From: Eggerthellaceae bacterium
Lineage (GTDB): Bacteria > Actinomycetota > Coriobacteriia > Coriobacteriales > Eggerthellaceae
Direction of reading: 5' to 3'
DNA length: 64,000 nt
Assembly: GCA_017431165.1 (NCBI GenBank)
Contig: JAFRLO010000040.1
Coordinates: forward strand, 1-64,000
This document shows positions 3,492-55,267 of this stretch, one piece after another; within the stretch, counting starts at the first letter, position 1, and each line of letters begins with the position of its first letter. The notes under the pieces were generated by a model. That model searched no databases. It had not been told where the DNA came from and saw only the letters and a program-made list of their open reading frames with translations. The position numbers and the translations under genes are program-made.

Positions 3492-4019
3492 TCAGTACAG
3501 CCGCTCGAACGTTTTGTAATGATCTCCCGTATAGTAGATCAAGCCGTCATTCGAATAGACAAGGCGTTTGGCGTTGCGGTAACCGCCTTCATAATCGATA
3601 TCCGCTTCGAACCATTTTCGACCAGGCGCATCGGGCATCATCCCATCATCGTTGGAAAAACCACCGCCACCGATGCTCATGCCGGGGAGCACGTCCCATA
3701 GATTGCCCTTATCTTGGACCCAGCCGGCTTTTCGCGCCTTGGTCTTCGTGATGTAGTTCGATGGTACATGGCCATATAGGTGTATATAGAGCGCTACCTC
3801 TTCCTTCGAGGTGTACTTGCCGTTTTCGGTCACCGTGACGGTGGTACTTGGCGTCTCGGGTTTCTGCGGTTGGGGCTGGACGATAGTGGGGTTATCCCCT
3901 CCGCCCCCTTGAGGTGCCTTTTTCGTGCAGCCCGCAAGCAAACCAGCACCTACAACAAGCGAAAGAACGCATACGAAAACGATCAGTTTCTTAACGATGT
4001 TCCCTGTTAGCTTACTCAT
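3492..4019 (-). CDS. Barnase-type ribonuclease carried as a surface lipoprotein
   Basis: Guanyl-type ribonuclease of the barnase family, 175 aa. Residues 1-31 form a lipoprotein signal (LVVGAGLLAG followed by Cys31), then a Pro/Gln/Thr linker (about 40-62) and the RNase domain (about 65-175). Barnase landmarks are present: PSNYITK, KGNLWDV, PGMSIGGGGFSN, EADIDY with catalytic Glu138, YRNAKR with Arg148 and Arg152, and GDHYKTF with catalytic His167. Classical barnase is freely secreted; the lipobox here predicts membrane anchoring on the outside. The next gene encodes the barstar-like inhibitor. It may serve RNA scavenging or contact-dependent antagonism. The gene pair sits inside an otherwise catabolic cluster. 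Confidence 0.92.
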   Translation of the reverse strand: MSKLTGNIVKKLIVFVCVLSLVVGAGLLAGCTKKAPQGGGGDNPTIVQPQPQKPETPSTTVTVTENGKYTSKEEVALYIHLYGHVPSNYITKTKARKAGWVQDKGNLWDVLPGMSIGGGGFSNDDGMMPDAPGRKWFEADIDYEGGYRNAKRLVYSNDGLIYYTGDHYKTFERLY

Positions 4020-7084: not shown

Positions 7085-9793
7085 TTACAAGCTGCGATCG
7101 ACCGCGCCGCCATTGAAGATGGCACGTGGCAAAACGTTCGCCTTCGGCTTAGCAACGTGCGCTACCACGGCGCGGAATTCCACATCCTCGTTGCTCTCAA
7201 CCGCATCAACAGTATACCCTTGGATATACCCATCTGTCGGATTGACCTTGTGGACGTCACGATAACTCAAACCGACCATGGAGAATCCCGCTTCAGCAAG
7301 CATAGCCTCGAATTCCTCTTGGCTTAATGCCGATTGCACGCTATTGCCCATCGCACGGGCTTTGGCAACGACATCCTTATCGCGAGGACCCGTCGCAACA
7401 ACCGTTTCGCAAATCAACATGCCGCCGAAACGCAGCACGCGGAAAATCTCACGAATCGCCTGCTTCGTATCATATGCCAAGTTCAGGATGCTATTGGTAA
7501 AGACGAGATCCATGCTGTTTTCACGCAGGCCGAGCGATGCGAGATCCTCGGGGAAGCCCCAATGGAATTCCATGTTGCTCTCGGGAAGACCAGAATCCTG
7601 CCAAGCACGATCCATGTCGCGCATTGCCTCGTTGATATGCTCACGGGACCAATCGATACCCACGACATGACCCGTAATGCCTACACGATCAGAAAGTTTG
7701 AAAACGCCTCGACCGCGACGGCAGCCGATGTCGAGGATCATCTTGCCCGTCAAGAACTCGGGAAGTGTCATCTTGCACATGCTATTGAAACCGTATTCGA
7801 AGGTTTTGTTAGCGTAATAGGATACGAGCTTGTCATGATATGCCTGTGTACCGACCGCTGCTTCCGGTTCGGGGTCGCTCGTTGGCTCGCCCGTCTCCAC
7901 TATCGCAGGTTCAACCGATTCTGGTTCGGAGAACTCCGCAACTATCTCGTCGACTGCAGCCTTCACTTCGTAAACCGCCTCGGAGATTATCTCTTCGATC
8001 TTCGCGCTCTCCGGAGAGGGAGCCTCGTCTACGACAGATGCCATGACGGTTCCCCCCTCATCAGCCTCAGGCACTTTTTTCTCAACAGGCGCCACAGGCA
8101 CAGGCGGCACTGGCTCTGGCTTACGTTCTTGCGAGACCTTTTCCGCTCCGTCTTCGCTCGAAGGTGCTGCATGGCGAGCATGGTTTGCTGATTTGCCTGG
8201 TGAAAGCGAGATCGGTACGACGTTTATGCCAGACCCTCCTTGAGAGCCCAAGCCCAACGGGTCTTGCTTCGCCTCGGCCGTTGCTGTGATGCGCTCCATG
8301 GGAAGCTCGCTGATGCGCTCGGCGATCTTCTGACGGTTATCCTCGACCAGAAGATCCTGATTGTGCGCGAAGTAGCTGTCGCTTCCGAAACGATTGAGGA
8401 ACTTCATCGTCGTAGTGCGCGCGGTCAGCTCGGTCACGAACACCAATAGCTCGCGCTTCTGGTTGAACGCCTCGTCGATGAACGCGAATGCGTTGTCCAA
8501 ACGAAGTTGCGCATCCTCGATATCCTGATTCAGGTTCTCGGCATGATGACGATACACCTGGTTGATCGTTGCGTAATCCTGGTAGTTCTCCCCCGCAGCC
8601 GTAGTCGACATCATCTCACGCAAGACGCCGTCGGCAAGTCGCAAGCTGCGCGTCGCTTGCGCAGATGCGGTACCGATGTCCTTGCTATGAGCGAGCCTAC
8701 CCTCTATCTGCTGAGCTGCATTGCTCACATAAGCGAACAGGTCATCACCTGTGCGCATCTTCTCCTTCAAGTCGGAAAGACCCTCGCGCACCATGTTGAG
8801 CGCCTCGTCCTTCTTCACGATTTCGAACATGTCGCCGCCCAGCGAATCGAGCAACAGCCCGAGCAAAGCCAAGCGCTCATCGAAGCGCGCGGCCTGCGCG
8901 CGCTCCACGATGGAGGCGTCCACGTTACCTGCCAGGATTTCATCGATCTGATAGTCCGACCGATATTTGTTGAACAAGTCGTAATACGCTGCGAATCGCT
9001 CGGCAATCTCCGCATCCTGCAGGAATTGTTCGACAAGCGCCGCGTTCACCGGCGTTTCCTGCTGCTCGAACAGCGTGATGGTCTTAGCCAAATCCTCCCA
9101 GCCACGAGCCGTTACGAAGCTCTTGCCGCCAAGCTTCGCCTCGACCATATAGAAATCGCTATGGCGAACCTCGAGATACGAGGTAACTGCCGGGTGCAAA
9201 CCTTGGTCGAGCGCGTAACTCTTCCATGCAGCATAATCCGGCTCGATGTCGATACGACGTAGACGATCCATGGTAACGATATCGAACTCATGCACCGAAC
9301 GGTTATATTCGGGAGGATTGCCTGCGCACACCACGATCCAGTCCTCGGGAATGCTATGGCGACCGAAGGTTTTGAATTGCAGAAACTGCAGCATGCTCGG
9401 ATAAAGCGTCTCCGAAACGCAATTGATCTCGTCGAGGAAGAGGATGCCCTTTTTAAGCCCCGTCTTCTCCATGTAATCGTACATGGATGCGATGATCTCG
9501 CTCATGGTGTATTCGGAGACATCGAATTCCACATCACCGTACTTCTTGTGCTCGATGAACGGCAATCCGAGTGCGCTTTGGCGCGTATGATGGGTCATCG
9601 AATACGAGACGAGTCCGATGCCCATCTCGGATGCCACCTGCTCGACGATTGCCGTCTTGCCGATGCCGGGTGCTCCAATCAAGAACAACGGACGCTGATG
9701 CGCGACATCGATGCAATAGGCGCCGGTGTCGTCCTTGCTCATGTACGCACGGACGGTTTCGGTGATTTGGTTCTTTGCTTCAGAGATGTTCAT
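7085..9793 (-). CDS. MoxR-like AAA+ ATPase fused to an ArsM-like methyltransferase
   Basis: A 902-aa two-enzyme fusion. Residues about 1-300 form a MoxR/dynein-type AAA+ ATPase: Walker A GAPGIGKT (40-47), Walker B ILFLDE (117-122), sensor AGNP (157-160) and Arg residues near 178-180. A helical region and a Pro/Glu-rich linker (about 520-640) follow. The C-terminus (about 645-880) is a SAM-dependent methyltransferase with DIGCRRGRG and VGIDWS. It resembles arsenite methyltransferases around TNSILNL and the GNSVQSAL segment. The Cys expected at both ArsM arsenic-binding sites is Ser here (768 and 818), so arsenic is an unlikely substrate. It is preceded by a VWA gene (6 bp) and an LRR gene. ATPase confidence is high; the methyl acceptor is unknown. 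Confidence 0.85.
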   Translation of the reverse strand: MNISEAKNQITETVRAYMSKDDTGAYCIDVAHQRPLFLIGAPGIGKTAIVEQVASEMGIGLVSYSMTHHTRQSALGLPFIEHKKYGDVEFDVSEYTMSEIIASMYDYMEKTGLKKGILFLDEINCVSETLYPSMLQFLQFKTFGRHSIPEDWIVVCAGNPPEYNRSVHEFDIVTMDRLRRIDIEPDYAAWKSYALDQGLHPAVTSYLEVRHSDFYMVEAKLGGKSFVTARGWEDLAKTITLFEQQETPVNAALVEQFLQDAEIAERFAAYYDLFNKYRSDYQIDEILAGNVDASIVERAQAARFDERLALLGLLLDSLGGDMFEIVKKDEALNMVREGLSDLKEKMRTGDDLFAYVSNAAQQIEGRLAHSKDIGTASAQATRSLRLADGVLREMMSTTAAGENYQDYATINQVYRHHAENLNQDIEDAQLRLDNAFAFIDEAFNQKRELLVFVTELTARTTTMKFLNRFGSDSYFAHNQDLLVEDNRQKIAERISELPMERITATAEAKQDPLGLGSQGGSGINVVPISLSPGKSANHARHAAPSSEDGAEKVSQERKPEPVPPVPVAPVEKKVPEADEGGTVMASVVDEAPSPESAKIEEIISEAVYEVKAAVDEIVAEFSEPESVEPAIVETGEPTSDPEPEAAVGTQAYHDKLVSYYANKTFEYGFNSMCKMTLPEFLTGKMILDIGCRRGRGVFKLSDRVGITGHVVGIDWSREHINEAMRDMDRAWQDSGLPESNMEFHWGFPEDLASLGLRENSMDLVFTNSILNLAYDTKQAIREIFRVLRFGGMLICETVVATGPRDKDVVAKARAMGNSVQSALSQEEFEAMLAEAGFSMVGLSYRDVHKVNPTDGYIQGYTVDAVESNEDVEFRAVVAHVAKPKANVLPRAIFNGGAVDRSL

Positions 9794-9799
9794 AAACGA

Positions 9800-11491
9800 T
9801 TACTCCTTTAACGTAGCGATATCGTCTTCATCCAAGATTATCTTCAATGCCCATGGTGGAACACGAGGGTGATTCACTTTCGGGTCTAAGAATACGAATG
9901 CCGTATCATAGTCAGGTGCCTTCTCCGGGAAGATGCCGTAGCCATCTGTAAAGTAGATCAATCCTCTCAGATTGATGAATTCTTTTTTCTCGATGAGTTT
10001 ATCCACATACTCGAATACGGGTCTGAAATCGGTTCCTCCGAAGCCGCGGATTTGGACGTTGTCAGCATATTCGCTCATCTCATCGAGTGAAGTGATGACC
10101 GTATCCAGCTGAACGCGCGCATCGCATTGGATGATATGGATATTAACGCGATGGTCGAACTGGTTGGCATCGCCAAGTATCTCGCAGGTGCGCGATACGA
10201 AGGCTTTCACCAAGTCTCCCGAACATGAGCCAGACGTGTCGATGGCGATGGCGAATTCACGCACGCGATTGCATTCCTGGTATTCGAGCGGCTCAATGAG
10301 CGGCATGTTGCCGTACAGGTCAAGACCGTACGTATAGAAGATGTAGTCGAACTCGTCATGGTTGACTTGGATGTCTTCCGCCAATACGCAGAAACGCTGA
10401 AGGAAGTCGCGGTAGTTCACGCGACGACGGTTGGCAACGGCAAGATTCAACAGAAACATGCCGGCTTCGTCACCCATCTGGTGCGCAAAGGTCTCGAGGT
10501 CAACCTCCAACTGCTTTGCGATCTCCTCCCACTGTCGAGCGATCTCCTCTTCGTCGAAATCCTCTTCGTCCTCATCGAGGCCGCCGTTGAGCGCATCGAG
10601 CACGTCTTCGAGAGAAAGCTCTCCATCGTTTTCGGCCGTATCTTCCCTCTCGTCGTCTTCGTCTTGAGAGGAGTCTGAGTCCTGACTTTCCTGATTGGGA
10701 GAAGCATCATCATCTTGCGATCCTTGACCGCCATCGCTCTCTTCGACCGTATCGACGGATAGCTCTTTGACTTCTTGGTTTTGGATTGGATCTTCGTCGG
10801 GATCGGGTTCGCCATCGGGATTCGGTTCGCCCTTTTTCGCGTTATTCGCCCAATAATCATGGGAATCGCGGATGAATATCTCCTCCAGTTGGCGCATGTA
10901 CAGAGGACTCAGTCCCATTTCCTTCGCTGTAGCGAAGCTACTTCCGGCATCCGCGAAAGCGCGGTAAAGGTTCTGTGGTGTGATGCGTCCGATATGCTCG
11001 GATAAATACTCGATTGCCTCTTTGGCTGCTGCATCGTATGCGCCAGGGAAACGCCGTGAGCACATCTCGACGGCAATGCTCTCGACCACGATATCGCACG
11101 CAAGACCCCACGAATAGGCATCCGTATGCTCGACATCGAGCGGATGGCGGAACACGCAATGCAAAAGCGTGTGGAGATAGTCGCGGATCGTCTCGTTCGG
11201 CGAACTCTCGAAACGCATGATGAGTGCAGAAGGAGAGAAGAACATATCGCGCCCGTTGCTGCCGAGTGCCACATACGAGTAGGCGATGCGGAATGGCAAC
11301 TGCCACAAGGCGCGATCGAGGAAGCGGAATGCCATCATGAGCGAGATGCGGCAATCTTTGAGAATTTCGACGCACAGTTCGAGAATGCGTTCATCCAGCT
11401 CTGCAGACCCCACGATGTAATCGTGGTCGGTGCGTTTGAGCACAAACGAAGGGTCCTGCATTGCGGTCGTATTGCCGAGAGCCGATGCCAT
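9800..11491 (-). CDS. VWA-domain protein, DUF2201-type partner of a MoxR ATPase
   Basis: A 563-aa protein without signal peptide or membrane segment. The N-terminal half (about 1-200) resembles the putative metallopeptidase/DUF2201 region found in VWA proteins encoded beside MoxR ATPases. The middle (about 225-310) is a strongly acidic Asp/Glu/Ser stretch. The C-terminal VWA domain has an intact MIDAS start AIDTSGS (Asp418), a later GGTDF and IYFTDGYG. MoxR/VWA pairs are thought to act as remodelling or metal-insertion machines, by analogy with magnesium chelatase. The chosen ATG at 11491 starts just after the stop of the LRR gene; an upstream in-frame ATG at 11515 would overlap that gene. 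Confidence 0.87.
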   Translation of the reverse strand: MASALGNTTAMQDPSFVLKRTDHDYIVGSAELDERILELCVEILKDCRISLMMAFRFLDRALWQLPFRIAYSYVALGSNGRDMFFSPSALIMRFESSPNETIRDYLHTLLHCVFRHPLDVEHTDAYSWGLACDIVVESIAVEMCSRRFPGAYDAAAKEAIEYLSEHIGRITPQNLYRAFADAGSSFATAKEMGLSPLYMRQLEEIFIRDSHDYWANNAKKGEPNPDGEPDPDEDPIQNQEVKELSVDTVEESDGGQGSQDDDASPNQESQDSDSSQDEDDEREDTAENDGELSLEDVLDALNGGLDEDEEDFDEEEIARQWEEIAKQLEVDLETFAHQMGDEAGMFLLNLAVANRRRVNYRDFLQRFCVLAEDIQVNHDEFDYIFYTYGLDLYGNMPLIEPLEYQECNRVREFAIAIDTSGSCSGDLVKAFVSRTCEILGDANQFDHRVNIHIIQCDARVQLDTVITSLDEMSEYADNVQIRGFGGTDFRPVFEYVDKLIEKKEFINLRGLIYFTDGYGIFPEKAPDYDTAFVFLDPKVNHPRVPPWALKIILDEDDIATLKE

Positions 11492-11492
11492 G

Positions 11493-13442
11493 CTACAAAT
11501 CCTCCACCACGGCACGCTTCGTCGAGAAACGCTTATGCTGCTCGTTGAGCAGGTAGCTCACGAGCTTGACGTCTTTCTGCTCACCGAGCAAGTCGATGAC
11601 CCTTGCAATATTCTGCTCGTTGATGAAACCGAGATCGACCAGCATCTTAATGAATTGGATATCGTTCTGCCTGCTGCATGCGATGATGAATTCATCCATG
11701 TGCCGCTCGACGCTTTTCACGAACATGTCGCGACCCGATTCGTCAAGGAAACGCCCGTCGGTCAGGCGCAGAAGAATCAATCCCGTACGCTCGATGGTCT
11801 GATAGCAATGGCGAATGCTCAAGTCAGCAAAGGCGAAGATGGTCGCCGGATCCATTATCGAGGTGTTCTTCTTCACGATTCCATCAGGGGTCTTTCCTCT
11901 CGGAACCAAATCCTCATCGCCCGCACCCGCAGTCGTCGGACCACCGAATGCTTGAGAGAAGCACTGTCCGCTATACGAGGAAGATGGGAAATGCGACGAG
12001 GGGAAATATGCCTCGTATCGATGCTCGACACCATCTATGTCGTTCGTCACGATGGTCACGCGAGGGACCACCGCAGAAATGAAAAATGCACCGAGTCCAA
12101 CACCGAGGATGTCGGTATGTACGGTCAAATGGGTTATCGAATCAACCCCTCCGAAGCAGAAGCCGTCGATGTAGATGACCCTTCGGGGAATCACCACGTC
12201 GGTCTGCGGTCCGACGTATACGACGGCATGGTCGCCCTCCTCGTCGCGGCGGCATAAAATCCCCGACTCCATATAGAACAATTCGTTTTCGGGATCGACC
12301 TCGATATCATGCAAGGTCGGTTGCGAAAGCGAGCTGCCACGGCTACAGGTGGAAAGCCCGTACATGCCCAGATACTGGAACCCCGCCGGAATGCGGAAGT
12401 TTGTGAGCGCTGTGCTGCGAAACGCCTCCTCGCCAATTGCAGTTAGGCTGTCAGGAACGACGATGTATTTAAGGCTTCGACAAAATTTGAACGAAGCGTT
12501 GCCGATTGTCTGCAAGCCCTCGGGTAACACGAGGCTTGCAATCGAGGGATGGTACAAAAACGCGCGGTCGGCAATGCGAAGCGTGCCGGGCATCACGATG
12601 TAATTGACGACTGAAAGCCCGAGCATCTCAACGAGGACAAGACCCTTGGTCGCCTTGCGGTACAAACCACCTTGGACGTCCGCTATAAACGGCGAGCCAA
12701 ATCCGAACGAAAGCGCTCCGAAAAGGCCGTTATCGACAAGCGGTGTCTGCCTGAACACTTCCCTACCCATTTTGACAACAGAGCCGGGAATCCGGATGCT
12801 TTCGATTGCGGTACCGTAGAAAGCTCCTTCACCAATGGAAGCAAGGCCGTCATTGAGATTGACGGTCTTAAGGCTCGCACAGTGGAAGAAGGCCTTCATC
12901 CCAAGGTTGCGCAAAGAAGGCGGCGCATCGAAAGACTTGATCTTCGTATTCGAGAATGCGAATCCGCCGATGCTTTCGAGTTCTTGACTTAAACCTATCG
13001 CTTCAAGATGCAGACAGCGATCGAATGCATGCCCTCCTAAATCCCGCACATGCTTGGGAAGCACCACTGAATTGAGGTTTTGCGAATGCGAACACACATG
13101 AGGAGCAAGCACAGTGACGACGCAGTCATCGATCTCATCGGGGAAAATGACTGCCTCCCGATCGGTTATGCACGCATCGATGCACACAGTGCCGTCTTCG
13201 AGCACGTGTGCCTCATAGCGCACGCCCTCATCATCGACCGTGAATTTCGAACCCCGATCGGACTTGTTGACCTGCGTATGAACCTTTGATGCTGAAGCGC
13301 CAGGAGGCGCAACGGAAATGTTGTTCACAGATAGCGCTTTCGCGGATTCACGCGTGACGAGCTCCTTGATGCCGACACCGCGCACAAGCTGCGCAGCAGC
13401 AGAGACCTGGCTGAACTGTTTATCCAAACCGTTTTCCACCAT
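11493..13442 (-). CDS. Intracellular leucine-rich-repeat (LRR_5/BspA-type) protein
   Basis: A 649-aa protein with a run of BspA-type repeats in roughly residues 120-430. Recurrent patterns are LxxVxLPxxLxxIGxxAFxxC, for example SIGEGAFYGTAIESIRIPGSV, IGNASFKFCRSLKYIVVPDS and IGEEAFRSTAL. No signal peptide or membrane segment is seen, unlike surface BspA proteins, so it is probably cytoplasmic and may be a recognition scaffold. The C-terminal 120 residues are helical, with an ankyrin-like look (FIIACSRQNDIQFIKMLVDLGFINEQN). It is the first gene of the LRR-VWA-AAA/methyltransferase set, and its stop is adjacent to the VWA start. Precise role unknown. Confidence 0.85.
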   Translation of the reverse strand: MVENGLDKQFSQVSAAAQLVRGVGIKELVTRESAKALSVNNISVAPPGASASKVHTQVNKSDRGSKFTVDDEGVRYEAHVLEDGTVCIDACITDREAVIFPDEIDDCVVTVLAPHVCSHSQNLNSVVLPKHVRDLGGHAFDRCLHLEAIGLSQELESIGGFAFSNTKIKSFDAPPSLRNLGMKAFFHCASLKTVNLNDGLASIGEGAFYGTAIESIRIPGSVVKMGREVFRQTPLVDNGLFGALSFGFGSPFIADVQGGLYRKATKGLVLVEMLGLSVVNYIVMPGTLRIADRAFLYHPSIASLVLPEGLQTIGNASFKFCRSLKYIVVPDSLTAIGEEAFRSTALTNFRIPAGFQYLGMYGLSTCSRGSSLSQPTLHDIEVDPENELFYMESGILCRRDEEGDHAVVYVGPQTDVVIPRRVIYIDGFCFGGVDSITHLTVHTDILGVGLGAFFISAVVPRVTIVTNDIDGVEHRYEAYFPSSHFPSSSYSGQCFSQAFGGPTTAGAGDEDLVPRGKTPDGIVKKNTSIMDPATIFAFADLSIRHCYQTIERTGLILLRLTDGRFLDESGRDMFVKSVERHMDEFIIACSRQNDIQFIKMLVDLGFINEQNIARVIDLLGEQKDVKLVSYLLNEQHKRFSTKRAVVEDL

Positions 13443-13505: not shown

Positions 13506-14600
13506 TTAATAATATCGATAATATGCCGCGCATGAGCCTTCGGAGGACACCATACAAGGTCCGACAGGATTCTCGGGCGAACATACCGTACGGAATAAAG
13601 GACATTCGCTCGGGGCCATGATACCGCGCAAAACGTCGCCGCAGCGACAACCCTTTGGGTCTTGCGTGGGTTCGACGACAGGCTTGAAGCGGCGCACCGC
13701 ATCGAAATCGGCATATTGCTCACGGATGCGATATCCCGAACCATCGATCATACCGAGTCCGCGCCAGAGTGCTGGACAGGTCTCGAACACCTCGTCGATA
13801 GCGGCACGCGCAATGGGATTTCCCTGCGGCATCACACCACGAGCATAGGCGATTTCGATTTCAGCGCGACCTTCGTGCAGCTGACGCAGAAGCATCGCGA
13901 TGCCCTGCAATACATCGACCGCCTCGAAGCCGGTAATCACGCCGGGGATGCCATACTGTTCTGCCAGGAAGCGATACGGTTCGATGCCGATGATGGTGCT
14001 CACGTGACCGGGAAGGATGAGGGCATCGAGCTTGAGCTTCGGATCGTTGATGATCGCCTCAAGGGCGCCTGGCATATTCTTATGAGCTGTGAACACGCTG
14101 AAATTGGTTAGTTTCGCATCGGCAGCACGCTTGATAGCGCGCGCAACAAGCGGCGTCGTGGTCTCAAAACCGACACCGACGAATACGACTTGCCGTTCAG
14201 GATGCTCCTGAGCAAACCTAAGCGCATCAAGCGGTGAATATACGATTTCGACCGAGCGTCCTTTTGCTTGCTCTTTGAGAAGCGAGGATGTCGAACCGGG
14301 CACACGCGTCATATCTCCGAAAGTCGTGATGGTAACCCCATCGATCCGCGCAAGCGCGATGACCGTATCGATATCGCGATTCGACGTCACGCACACCGGG
14401 CATCCTGGACCAGAGCTCAAACGAATGCCCGATGGCATCAAGTCACGGATGCCGTTGCGAGCGATAGCGACCGTATGCGTGCCGCACACTTCCATGAGCG
14501 TCGCTTGCTTCGGCGCGTATGCCTCGATGGCGGAGATAAGCCCCCGAGCAAGCGTCGGGTCTTTGAAAGATGCGAAAGGAGTATCGAGAGCGCTCATCAT
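13506..14600 (-). CDS. hypD: Hydrogenase maturation protein HypD
   Basis: Iron-sulfur scaffold that, with HypC, assembles the Fe(CN)2CO moiety of [NiFe]-hydrogenase. The 364-aa product contains MEVCGTHT, GPGCPVCVT with thiol residues, GVGFETTTP and GHVSTIIG, plus a Cys-rich C-terminus (CRCGDVLRG, SECPLF, CSPENP, SCAAYY) that binds the [4Fe-4S] cluster. It lies 8 bp after hypC on the same strand and ends 63 bp before the LRR gene. Structural hydrogenase genes are not in the window. Confidence 0.97.
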   Translation of the reverse strand: MMSALDTPFASFKDPTLARGLISAIEAYAPKQATLMEVCGTHTVAIARNGIRDLMPSGIRLSSGPGCPVCVTSNRDIDTVIALARIDGVTITTFGDMTRVPGSTSSLLKEQAKGRSVEIVYSPLDALRFAQEHPERQVVFVGVGFETTTPLVARAIKRAADAKLTNFSVFTAHKNMPGALEAIINDPKLKLDALILPGHVSTIIGIEPYRFLAEQYGIPGVITGFEAVDVLQGIAMLLRQLHEGRAEIEIAYARGVMPQGNPIARAAIDEVFETCPALWRGLGMIDGSGYRIREQYADFDAVRRFKPVVEPTQDPKGCRCGDVLRGIMAPSECPLFRTVCSPENPVGPCMVSSEGSCAAYYRYY

Positions 14601-14608
14601 GACGGCCT

Positions 14609-14848
14609 TTATGCGAAGAGGTCTTCGCCAGCAAGCTGTGGCAGCTCCTTGATGAGCTCAATGGTCTCGAGAGCGTAATCCGCATCGACGACCTCGATTG
14701 CGAAACCTGCATGAACGAGCACGTAATCGCCTAAACCGGCTTGAGGTGTAAGATCAAGTGCAACCTCTCGGGTAACACCGAGAATGTCGACCGTCGCAAG
14801 ACTATCCTCACCGATCTCGATGATCTTTCCCGGTATCGCAAGGCACAT
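14609..14848 (-). CDS. hypC: Hydrogenase maturation chaperone HypC
   Basis: Small chaperone (79 aa) that partners HypD and carries the iron centre to the hydrogenase large subunit. The N-terminal MCLAIPGKI with the essential Cys2 is diagnostic, followed by GDYVLVHAGFAIE, another family signature. It lies between hypF (31 bp upstream) and hypD (8 bp downstream) and is clearly part of the same transcript. Confidence 0.97.
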   Translation of the reverse strand: MCLAIPGKIIEIGEDSLATVDILGVTREVALDLTPQAGLGDYVLVHAGFAIEVVDADYALETIELIKELPQLAGEDLFA

Positions 14849-14879: not shown

Positions 14880-17288
14880 TTATTCCCGACCCTGACGATT
14901 GTAGCGTACAACCGCCTGCCCGAACGATATGCATCCGTCATGAGGCGGCAAGTCCCTGCCAACCGCCACCGTGAAACCTGCCTGGGCAAGCGCAGCAAGA
15001 GCGTGCTCGGTAAGATAGCGGTTGAGGAACACGCCTCCCGAGAGCACCACAGTACGAATGCCATAAAGCATGTCTACAAGCTGCGCGCCCTGCACGATGG
15101 CTTTGACGAATGCATCGTGGAAGCGTCGCGCGATTACCGATGCGGGCACACCCGCATACGCATCATCAAGCAGTGCCTTGAAAACCCCTGCTGCATCGAA
15201 AAGCATGACCGAAGTTTCCTGAGCAGTACTGGAATCGGTCGCAGTGTTCTTCTGGACTTCGATGGTATAGCGATCGTCATCATCTGCTTCTTTCGCACGG
15301 TCCTCGGCGTCGCACATGGCTGCTTCGAGAAGAATCGCAGGCTCCCCTTCATAGGTAGGGTCTGTGCAGATGCCCAAAAGCGCGCTTGCCGCATCGAAGA
15401 GGCGGCCGACAGAAGATGTATATGGGGTATTCAAGCCACGCTCGATCATCTGGTCGAGCACTGCGGGCATATCACCAAGAGAAGAAAGCGCTGAAAGAGC
15501 AAACGGATGCTCTAGCAAATCAAACGCCCACAAAACCCCATATGCCATGCGCAAAGGTTCGCGGATGCATGCTGCGCCGCCAGGCATGGGAACATATGCG
15601 AAGTTAGCGAATCGTTCATAATCCTTATTGTTGGCGAGAAGGACCTCTCCTCCCCAAATCGCACCGTCAGGACCATACCCCGTGCCATCGAACGCAATGC
15701 CGCATACAGGATCTTTTATACCGTGCTCGCCGAGTACGCTCGCGATGTGCGCATGATGGTGCTGCACTAACAAAAGAGGCATGCCTTGCTCGTGCGCCCA
15801 TTTCGTGGAAAGGTATTCGGGATGGAGATCGCACACCAGTTCTTTTGGTTGCACTTGGAAAAGAGTCTGGAACCGATTCTTGGCCTCAAGCCATGCGTCG
15901 AACGTCTCGGCATGTTCCAAATCGCCGATGTGCTGCGACACGAACACCTCGCTACCGCGCACTACGCAAAACGTATTCTTCTGCTCGGGTCCCGTGCAGA
16001 GAAACTCCTCTTTAGACGCATCATCTGGGACAAGCTTCAAGGGAACGGGGCTATAGCCTCGCGCCCGCCTCACCATCTGTATGGCTTCTTCGCCATCAGC
16101 ATCGATTACGCGCACGACCGAGTCATCATAGCGTGCGCGGATCGGACGGTTGTTTCCTAAAAAGGCATCCGCAATACTGCCAAGCGCTTCACGAGCATGG
16201 TCGTCATCGATCTCAATCGGAGCATCGTGGACATTACCCGATGTCATGACGAGCATCTGCCCACCTGCTTCTACGAAATCATGCATGAGCAGATGCTGCA
16301 ACGGCGTGTATGGAAGCATGACGCCGAGTTCGGGTAGATAGTCTGCCAATCCTTGGGCAAACTGTGCGCCAGAAAGTTTTCGCAACAGCACGATGGGGTG
16401 CTGTGCCCCGCTCAAGACGCACTTCTCGACATCATTGATATGGCAGAACTTCCGTATGGTTTCAACGTCTTTCATCATGACCGCGAAAGGCTTGCCCTCG
16501 CGTCGCTTCCGTGCGCGCAGAGTCGCTACCGCCGAATCGTTTTCAGCATCGCATACAAGGTGGAAACCTCCGAGACCCTTGACTGCCAAGATGCCGCCTT
16601 CGAGCAGTACGCGAACGCATCGGGCGATAATAGCATCGCTTTGCTCTCGGGTATGCCCCCATATGGTCTTCGAAACGATGCCGTCTTCCGCATCCTTGCG
16701 TATCGATGGATTCTCCCAATACGAAATCGATGGTCCGCATTCGAAGCACGCGTCAGGCTGCGCATGGAAACGGCGGTCCGTCGGGTCGGCGTACTCGGCT
16801 GCGCACGCTTCGCACATCTCAAAGCCCGCCATCGACGTACGCGAACGGTCATAAGGCAGTTCTTCGATAATCGTGAAACGCGGACCGCAATTCGTGCAGT
16901 TGATGAATGGATAGCGATATCGTCGGTCATTCGGGTCGAACAATTCGCGTACGCAGTCGTCACACGTTGCAAGATCGGGAGATACCAGAGTTACCTTATT
17001 GGTTGATTGCTCATCAGAGAAACGTATCGTGAAGCCCTCGAAGTCTTCGAGCGGTACTTCCTTTAAATCGATTTCCGTAACGCGCGCAGCTTCGGGATGA
17101 TTCTGCGCGATCTCCATCACGAATTCGTCGACGAGACGCTCGTCACCTTCCGCATGGATATCAACGCCCTCCTTGGAATTAAGGACCCATCCGCTAATCA
17201 GATACCTTTTCGCAAGACGGTAGACAAAGGGGCGGAAACCCACCCCCTGCACTATTCCTTGAACATGGATGCGAAGCGCGGTTCTCAT
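14880..17288 (-). CDS. hypF: Carbamoyltransferase HypF
   Basis: Makes the cyanide ligand precursor by transferring a carbamoyl group to the C-terminal Cys of HypE. All domains are present in an 802-aa protein. An acylphosphatase domain (about 1-90) carries GIVQGVGFRPFVYRLA. Zinc fingers follow with CDDC, CTNC, CEAC and CFEC pairs (about 105-190). A YrdC/Sua5-type domain has GGILAVKGLGGFHL, and a Kae1-like carbamoyltransferase domain has VQHHHAHIASVLGEHG and GIAFDGTGYG with LSGGVFLN. Its first codon overlaps the end of pgi (ATGA), which sets the start and suggests coupling to that unrelated gene. Confidence 0.97.
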   Translation of the reverse strand: MRTALRIHVQGIVQGVGFRPFVYRLAKRYLISGWVLNSKEGVDIHAEGDERLVDEFVMEIAQNHPEAARVTEIDLKEVPLEDFEGFTIRFSDEQSTNKVTLVSPDLATCDDCVRELFDPNDRRYRYPFINCTNCGPRFTIIEELPYDRSRTSMAGFEMCEACAAEYADPTDRRFHAQPDACFECGPSISYWENPSIRKDAEDGIVSKTIWGHTREQSDAIIARCVRVLLEGGILAVKGLGGFHLVCDAENDSAVATLRARKRREGKPFAVMMKDVETIRKFCHINDVEKCVLSGAQHPIVLLRKLSGAQFAQGLADYLPELGVMLPYTPLQHLLMHDFVEAGGQMLVMTSGNVHDAPIEIDDDHAREALGSIADAFLGNNRPIRARYDDSVVRVIDADGEEAIQMVRRARGYSPVPLKLVPDDASKEEFLCTGPEQKNTFCVVRGSEVFVSQHIGDLEHAETFDAWLEAKNRFQTLFQVQPKELVCDLHPEYLSTKWAHEQGMPLLLVQHHHAHIASVLGEHGIKDPVCGIAFDGTGYGPDGAIWGGEVLLANNKDYERFANFAYVPMPGGAACIREPLRMAYGVLWAFDLLEHPFALSALSSLGDMPAVLDQMIERGLNTPYTSSVGRLFDAASALLGICTDPTYEGEPAILLEAAMCDAEDRAKEADDDDRYTIEVQKNTATDSSTAQETSVMLFDAAGVFKALLDDAYAGVPASVIARRFHDAFVKAIVQGAQLVDMLYGIRTVVLSGGVFLNRYLTEHALAALAQAGFTVAVGRDLPPHDGCISFGQAVVRYNRQGRE

Positions 17289-54244: not shown

Positions 54245-55267
54245 TTAGCAGATACGCGGAAGCTGCTCTCCAACAAGCATGTCGAGGATGCTCTTGCCGC
54301 CAAACGCATTACGCAGAAACACTTTCGGACCGCGCTCGGGTTGGGCTTCAGACACCGTTCCGATAATGGCCGCATCAATGCCATAAGGATCGCTCTTCAT
54401 GGCCTCGAGCGCCGCCTTTGCCTCGTCTGAGGAAACGATGCACACCATCTTTCCTTCGTTGGCAACTTGCATGACGTTGTATCCGAGCATCTCGCATGCT
54501 CCGCGTACGGCATCCTTCACAGGTACCGATTCCTCTTCTATCGTCATGTCGACATGAGCTTGCCCGGCAAGCTCGTTGAGCGTACTCGCCAATCCTCCCC
54601 TCGTAGGATCGCGGAAGACGCGTGTATGGGGCGCTGCTTCAAGTACGCGCGCAATAAGATGATTCAAAGGAGCGGCATCGCTTTGTATATCGGCGCTGAA
54701 TCCGAGGTTTTCTCGACAACTCATGATCGTAATACCATGATCGCCGAGTGTACCGCTGACCAGAATCGAATCTCCAGGCTGAATGCAGGCGCCACCGAGC
54801 TCGATTCCTTCATCAATCAGCCCGACACCGCTCGTGTTGATGAACACGCCGTCACCATGGCCTTTGTTAACCACTTTGGTATCACCCGTCACGATGGCCA
54901 CACCCGCCTCGCGTGCGGCCTTTGCCATGCTTTCGCAAATGCGACGCAGATCCTCAATAGGATAACCTTCTTCTAAAATGAACCCGCAGCTAAGATATAG
55001 CGGCTTCGCACCGCTTGTTGCCACATCGTTTACGGTTCCGCATACGGCCAAACGCCCAATATCGCCACCTGGGAAGAAATGGGGCGTGACAACGAAGCTG
55101 TCGGTCGAGAATGCCAAGCGCTGTCCAGGGGCAGGAACGGGCAGGACAGCGGCATCGTCACCTTTAAGCAGATAATCATCTCCATAGGCAGCGAAGAACA
55201 CTTCGTCGATAATGCGCTTCATCATGATTCCGCCACTGCCATGGCCAAGCATGACCGTCGTATCCAT
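54245..55267 (-). CDS. hypE: Hydrogenase maturation protein HypE
   Basis: Dehydrates the carbamoyl group received from HypF into the cyanide ligand. The 340-aa AIR-synthase fold shows LGHGSGGIMMKRII, GDDAAVL, FSTDSFVVTPHFFPGGDIG and DPTRGGLASTLNELA. The last residues are PRIC, giving the essential C-terminal Cys that is carbamoylated. It is located apart from hypFCD, in an operon with nikR (12-bp gap) and an 84-aa protein. Confidence 0.97.
   Translation of the reverse strand: MDTTVMLGHGSGGIMMKRIIDEVFFAAYGDDYLLKGDDAAVLPVPAPGQRLAFSTDSFVVTPHFFPGGDIGRLAVCGTVNDVATSGAKPLYLSCGFILEEGYPIEDLRRICESMAKAAREAGVAIVTGDTKVVNKGHGDGVFINTSGVGLIDEGIELGGACIQPGDSILVSGTLGDHGITIMSCRENLGFSADIQSDAAPLNHLIARVLEAAPHTRVFRDPTRGGLASTLNELAGQAHVDMTIEEESVPVKDAVRGACEMLGYNVMQVANEGKMVCIVSSDEAKAALEAMKSDPYGIDAAIIGTVSEAQPERGPKVFLRNAFGGKSILDMLVGEQLPRIC

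Follow-up and report, generated by a model that had tools for sequence, protein, structure and literature searches.

The known MoxR-VWA machines are chaperones made of two parts, and the way in which they choose their clients is poorly understood. Where the function of such a pair is known, it consists in maturing or remodelling metalloenzymes (PMC13036017; PMC9976466), and the finger of NorD enters the pore of NorQ (PMC13036017). The catechol dehydroxylases, which are related to the MopB protein described below, need accessory genes and were inactive in E. coli, whereas Gordonibacter urolithinfaciens serves as an expression host (PMC11887054). DUF2201 and an LRR component are both absent from the main text on the MoxR-vWA ternary conflict systems (PMC7159879). 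The initial annotation of the locus analysed here supposed that three adjacent genes, encoding a leucine-rich-repeat (LRR) protein, a VWA protein and a MoxR-type ATPase fused to a methyltransferase, belong to no described system, and this view held: no DUF2201-AAA-LRR account was found in the open-licence literature, and the three-part AAA-VWA-LRR system appears to be undescribed.

The window is the whole stretch of 64,000 nucleotides of an Eggerthellaceae bacterium that was analysed, contig C48 of a metagenome-assembled genome (1.2 Mb, 67% complete). Its features are as follows:

7085..9793, minus strand: MoxR-like AAA+ ATPase with a fused methyltransferase-like domain, 902 aa (P0001; Pfam; fusion in 39 of 64 operons)
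7124..7765, minus strand: ArsM-like class I methyltransferase domain, invariant RRGxG loop, no arsenic-site cysteines
7844..8293, minus strand: fast-evolving linker of P0001, residues 501-650 (dN/dS 0.29 versus 0.02-0.03 in the flanking domains)
8294..9793, minus strand: AAA+ core of P0001, residues 1-500 (alignment A1, 28 sequences, Walker A and B kept)
9800..11491, minus strand: VWA protein (DUF2201), 563 aa (P0002; PF09967; adjoins the AAA gene in 64 of 64 operons)
10226..10240, minus strand: MIDAS motif DTSGS, residues 418-422 (sequence and homologue alignment)
10280..10351, minus strand: segment before the VWA domain, the EFDYIFYTYGLDLYGNMPLIEPLEY region, residues 381-404 (many invariant residues; pLDDT below 50 in part)
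11159..11173, minus strand: HxxxH pair (H107, H111) of the DUF2201_N domain, a metallopeptidase-like site without the catalytic Glu
11493..13442, minus strand: LRR protein, 649 aa (P0003; LRR_5/BspA; AlphaFold2 pLDDT 82.6)
11496..11855, minus strand: tail domain at the C-terminus of the LRR protein, which would dock on VWA/AAA (tail profile)
13506..14600, minus strand: hypD, context (PF01924, 494 bits)
14609..14848, minus strand: hypC, context (ORF starts MCLAIPGKI; identity from sequence)
14880..17288, minus strand: hypF, context (domain search)

The gene order and the short gaps first reported were confirmed by the ORF coordinates, since the LRR gene (13442-11493), the VWA gene (11491-9800, starting with ATG at 11491) and the AAA-methyltransferase gene (9793-7085) follow each other on the minus strand with gaps of 1 bp and 6 bp, respectively. 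The same reading of the ATPase as MoxR-type and of the VWA protein as carrying an intact DTSGS MIDAS motif also proved correct, as detailed below. The minus-strand order in the window is hypF, hypC, hypD, LRR, VWA, AAA-methyltransferase and a purE-like gene, so that the operon lies directly downstream of hypF-hypC-hypD, with 63 bp between hypD and the LRR gene; this hyp neighbourhood is known from three genomes of one genus only. The hypE gene is found about 40 kb away from these three genes, at 54245-55267, and its displacement through insertion of the operon was rejected, as hypE is also separate from hypD in three relatives. A promoter scan of the window gave fewer sites than in shuffles. 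A small lipoprotein-like ORF at 3492-4019 of the window carries a barnase-type ribonuclease domain (PF00545, 60.8 bits). Within the genus, dN/dS was 0.022 for the AAA part, 0.027 for the methyltransferase, 0.03 for the VWA protein and 0.09 for the LRR protein, compared with 0.03 for the neighbouring HypD; values for every folded part ranged from 0.02 to 0.12, and every part of the operon is under strong purifying selection.

Pfam searches placed AAA/AAA_5 domains at residues 35-173 of P0001, both above cut-off (PF07728, 29 bits with a cut-off of 22; PF00004, 32 bits with a cut-off of 21.2). The Walker A (GAPGIGKT) and Walker B (FLDE) motifs are intact in the window protein and conserved across the 28 aligned sequences, and the conserved block MTHHTRQSALGLP is a candidate helix-2 insert. 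Among the relatives found in a search of 138 family genomes, the conserved part of the window protein was the AAA core (1-500), which a linker of about 150 residues separates from the methyltransferase. Among solved structures, sequence search for the AAA gave nothing close, the only match being the midasin P-loop. At L042 (3228-3893), a separate methyltransferase gene is preceded by a gene for 221 aa whose weak similarity (about 23%) to a portion of the AAA core makes it look like a split-off piece, and at L035 (4120-6851, genome G092) the AAA-methyltransferase frame is broken in two near residue 430, by a frameshift or an assembly error.

The VWA protein matched PF09967 (DUF2201) with 49 bits (cut-off 26.4), and its AlphaFold2 model, in which the VWA domain forms the C-terminal end of the protein, matched VWA folds in the PDB; sequence search for solved relatives of this protein returned none. 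Residues D418, S420, S422, T487 and D516 of the MIDAS site are invariant in 46 homologues. The N-terminal part scored under the cut-off for DUF2201_N (PF13203, 21.9 bits versus 23.2), and it reads HTLLH in the window where a peptidase would have HExxH, the consensus of the 46 homologues also being without the Glu. However, H107 and H111 are invariant in these homologues and H116 and E137 nearly so. Because the histidines are invariant while the peptidase Glu is missing, a metal-binding and non-proteolytic N-terminal site is plausible. The conserved EFDYIFYTYGLDLYGNMPLIEPLEY segment may, by analogy with the NorD finger, be a candidate finger into the AAA pore.

Relatives of the window protein were found in 107 of the 138 family genomes, many of which have several AAA copies (up to five per genome), and most of the named relatives whose AAA proteins come closest belong to Eggerthellaceae. 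In a sample of 396 genomes from the phylum, the AAA occurred in members of Eggerthellaceae only, and a scan of named genomes showed the AAA core encoded at 593 loci at least, many of them clostridial. About 60 neighbourhoods, drawn from the top of the match list for the window protein, were fetched and yielded 64 AAA operons with the genes LRR-VWA-AAA in line (type A). In these, the VWA gene adjoins the AAA gene in 64/64 and the LRR gene is upstream on the same strand in 59/64. Three of the five operons without an upstream LRR gene lie at contig ends (L006, L036, L079), and the other two have a tail-bearing LRR gene that is reoriented. In type B, a VWA-AAA pair is accompanied by a divergently transcribed LRR gene, and a RecN-like gene is near the operon in 11 of 18. 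In Clostridia, the AAA-VWA pair shares its operons with between one and eight LRR genes. In a tree of 95 AAA sequences, the Clostridia and most of type B separate from type A, within which the window AAA forms a deep lineage. A mobile or plasmid origin was rejected: the VWA protein had no plasmid match, and its best phage-collection matches are short, unverified contigs of faecal origin, the two that were checked being also unannotated.

The initial annotation held that a joint system would be unlikely if homologues of the three genes rarely co-occurred. LRR, VWA and AAA were found together almost without exception, which supports a joint remodelling system, and we are highly confident that LRR-VWA-AAA is a real and recurrent three-component system. 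Chance adjacency of three unrelated genes is virtually impossible, being already refuted by co-conservation, since these genes are found linked at dozens of loci that are independent of each other and dN/dS is low; nothing was found in its favour.

The LRR protein is made of a disordered region (1-57), LRR_5 repeats (about 60-480; PF13306, 163 bits with a cut-off of 27.7) and a C-terminal helical tail (530-649), and inspection revealed no evident signal peptide. When only the repeats of the model were searched, the best PDB folds were LRR proteins (for example 6mlx, Z 24.6, rmsd 2.5 over 194). The tail, about 105 residues that are helical and outside the repeats, was modelled with a pLDDT of about 90 (AlphaFold2, window protein). 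A tail profile grown over the fetched loci marked 61 proteins at 59 of 60 type-A loci, as well as 20/20 type-B and 41/51 clostridial loci, so that it marks LRR partners in three phylogenetic groups. Comparison of the positions of tail matches with those of the AAA matches in the family genomes showed that, across 25 whole genomes, 31/31 tail matches are at most 6 kb from an AAA copy; the profile had no match in five genomes that lack the AAA (G016, G046, G070, G078, G079). The tail is conserved while the LRR repeats vary, and these repeats are without sign of an arms race (dN/dS 0.09 within the genus). Some tail proteins in the clostridial arrays have no recognisable LRR repeats.

Many type-A operons stand beside a block of genes for a molybdopterin protein. 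The gene c4 was present in 27 sampled loci, most of which read MopB - c8 - c4 - c3 - LRR - VWA - AAA::methyltransferase (fused) on one strand, with trigger factor and/or an FKBP isomerase near many of the MopB-block loci; in a second type-A clade, a trigger-factor-like gene is found between AAA and methyltransferase. The block MopB has acetylene hydratase as its nearest relative (2e7z, E 7e-69), and its conservation from genus to genus is strong (77-100%). Its Fe-S cysteines are missing in 14/14 readable N-termini (RSNTWSPPGSHPVGYG against TCAWSPPGCHPVGCG), and c8, the small MopB partner, resembles by inspection an Fe-S subunit without cysteines; such cysteine-less pairs were seen at L043 (2-2161 and 2173-2541), L039, L094, L096 and L103. 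Since both proteins have lost the Fe-S cysteines, they may not be ordinary enzymes, and the MopB and c8 with the small uncharacterised proteins c4 and c3 are possibly a cofactor scaffold or an Fe-S-free enzyme. Radical-SAM genes recur beside type-A operons that lack the MopB block (L048 13919-14932, L061, L068, L074, L076, L080).

General maturation of Mo-enzymes as the universal function was rejected, because AAA copy number does not follow molybdopterin gene number in genomes with AAA (rho -0.07, with first-look candidates as a proxy for MopB counts and AAA copies tallied by hand), some molybdopterin-rich genomes have no AAA, and no MopB neighbour was found at clostridial loci. The MopB block was also present without the AAA operon in six genomes inspected.

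The AAA, the VWA protein and the tail-bearing LRR protein are inherited as a unit with intact nucleotide and MIDAS sites. What MoxR-VWA pairs are known to do, together with the links to MopB and chaperones and the hyp operon in the window, speaks for a machine of maturation or assembly, and we give an even chance to the reading that the operon encodes an ATP-driven remodelling or maturation machine of the MoxR/VWA kind with the LRR protein as its client-recognition subunit. In such a machine, the LRR surface would bind a specific client protein, and either the VWA protein or the AAA ring would receive the helical tail. The VWA protein would couple to the AAA pore, possibly via the segment preceding its VWA domain, in the manner of NorD and NorQ, and ATP hydrolysis would reshape the client to allow the assembly of an enzyme complex or the insertion of a cofactor. 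In this family, metalloenzymes would be the likeliest clients: for most type-A lineages molybdopterin proteins and, in the genus of the window, perhaps [NiFe]-hydrogenase maturation. The tethered methyltransferase-like domain would be an accessory of particular lineages, with the client or a cofactor as what it may modify or hold; arsenite methylation is unlikely. Against metalloenzyme clients, the type-B operons are beside recN instead of metalloenzymes. As the MopB link is not absolute, we regard the machine as general and the metalloenzyme client as a putative one at the level of the family.

The conserved tail and variable repeats could also mean that the LRR proteins are themselves the clients, which the AAA-VWA pair would fold, assemble or disassemble via their common tail, the LRR proteins doing the work. 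Clostridial operons with up to eight LRR genes for one AAA-VWA pair would suit this arrangement; tandem arrays of this kind surround the pair at L128 (5760-19739), L133, L131 and L145. However, the 25 Eggerthellaceae genomes have mostly one LRR gene per AAA copy, and the chaperone and MopB context would be left unexplained, which makes LRR clients rather unlikely.

The same tandem arrays, together with paralogous AAA copies (up to five per genome), a C-terminal domain swapped in an effector-like manner, a weak bpMoxR match (22 bits) and the core couple with a third component that Kaur et al. 2020 described in MoxR-vWA ternary systems, would be expected of an anti-phage conflict system in which the LRR protein senses the invader and the MoxR-VWA couple sets a threshold and releases the methyltransferase-like effector. 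We regard this as unlikely, since the LRR protein shows no diversification within the genus (dN/dS 0.09), PADLOC on the window returned no match of note and the neighbours are metabolic, type B is fixed in place beside recN, and the VWA protein has no plasmid match and, as its best phage-collection matches, only short unverified faecal contigs. The published systems also have another gene order, other motifs at the MoxR N-terminus and a VWA protein that is built differently.

The third alternative depends on the methyltransferase, detected as Methyltransf_31 at residues 683-836 of P0001 (69.8 bits, Pfam). This METHYLTRANSFERASE domain is fused in 39/64 type-A operons and nearby in 11/64 (50/64 in total), a rate that is valid for that branch only because the sample came from the top of the match list. 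It was absent from the 18 type-B operons inspected and from 51 clostridial loci, the sole exception outside type A being L123. The domain is closest by sequence to ArsM (8xt7, E 1.5e-21), but it scored 93 bits where the ArsM NCBIfam cut-off is 263. Its arsenic-site cysteines are replaced (NS/NN and GNSIQ) in nearly all of the alignment rows listed, one row reading GNCIQ. Its SAM loop is CRRGxG rather than of the GxGxG type, and neither arginine varies in 50 sequences. Arsenite methylation was rejected, as both C-terminal arsenic-site cysteines are replaced. Strong constraint (dN/dS about 0.03) indicates that the domain is functional in some sense. At L189 (2173-6971, genome G058), the order MopB - c8 - c4 - c3 - stand-alone methyltransferase - FKBP without LRR-VWA-AAA shows that the methyltransferase can belong to the MopB block alone.

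A methylation-centred operon, in which an active SAM-dependent methyltransferase acts on a client presented by the AAA or on a small molecule such as arsenite, could draw on the fused or adjacent domain in 50/64 operons, on its constraint and on ArsM as nearest relative. It is nevertheless clearly improbable, given the lost cysteines, the altered SAM loop, a score far under the ArsM cut-offs and the absence of the domain from type B and Clostridia. Coupling to the methyltransferase is real in one branch, where it is a clade-specific add-on. The initial annotation had also taken absence of the methyltransferase from nearly all orthologues as a sign against a joint system; here the outcome was mixed, the domain being absent in type B and Clostridia, L123 excepted, and fused or adjacent in 50/64 type-A operons. 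The remodelling part of its proposal thus stands, while a remodelling-plus-modification system is only possible, since the methyltransferase loop is altered in sequence.

The remodelling or maturation machine that we prefer can be extended, with what we consider a low probability, to a new three-component AAA+ class in which tail-docking LRR receptors would be exchangeable client adaptors and one branch, together with the cysteine-less MopB and the repurposed methyltransferase, would form a scaffold-and-modification station for the Mo/W cofactor, functionally like NifEN for nitrogenase. Such a station, if true, would help explain why gut dehydroxylases are inactive in E. coli. If the maturation reading is true, the operon provides candidate host factors for gut molybdoenzymes that resist expression in E. 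coli. A dedicated, co-inherited LRR subunit would offer a modular answer to client selection, for which the tail is a direct experimental handle, and hundreds of loci of gut Clostridia and Eggerthellaceae encode the AAA core.

Comparison with BspA-type surface proteins showed that the LRR protein shares their LRR_5 repeats (6mlx, 4cp6) but has no evident signal peptide, and that its tail is found only beside AAA copies in the genomes tested. The methyltransferase-like domain belongs with ArsM to a common Rossmann methyltransferase branch, but lacks the arsenic cysteines, has an altered motif I and is fused to an AAA.

The MoxR-vWA ternary conflict systems (PMC7159879) resemble the window system in having the couple, a variable third protein and several paralogous copies per genome. 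The window system differs in that it has no VMAP or beta-propeller, has the order LRR-VWA-AAA and a VWA protein without an effector tail, is found in Eggerthellaceae and Clostridia and evolves slowly. VMAP ternary systems are recognised by the order VMAP-MoxR-vWA and by W motifs; the Pfam search gave no VMAP match, and there is no Trp among the roughly 39 residues preceding Walker A in the window AAA. As for the beta-propeller type, PF20030 (bpMoxR) scored 22.2 bits, under the cut-off of 27, and the VWA protein has no C-terminal beta-propeller.

The catechol dehydroxylase clusters of Eggerthella and Gordonibacter (PMC7028382, PMC11887054) come from the same bacterial family and likewise combine an acetylene-hydratase-like molybdopterin subunit and a small partner with accessory maturation genes. 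However, the MopB and partner linked to our system have no Fe-S cysteines, and the accessory genes reported for the dehydroxylases include a TorD-like chaperone and not AAA, VWA or LRR genes.

The window system is like NorQ/NorD, CbbQ/CbbO and RavA/ViaA (PMC13036017, PMC9976466) in its MoxR-like AAA partner, here a putative ring, and VWA protein with a full MIDAS. It further shares with these pairs a separate N-terminal domain of the VWA protein and a disordered acidic linker, client remodelling or metal insertion being proposed. The N-terminus of its VWA protein is, however, a DUF2201_N metallopeptidase-like domain without the Glu, and some copies of the system have a methyltransferase. Finally, while NorQ/NorD, CbbQ/CbbO and RavA/ViaA are two-component, the window system adds a co-inherited LRR subunit with a conserved tail.
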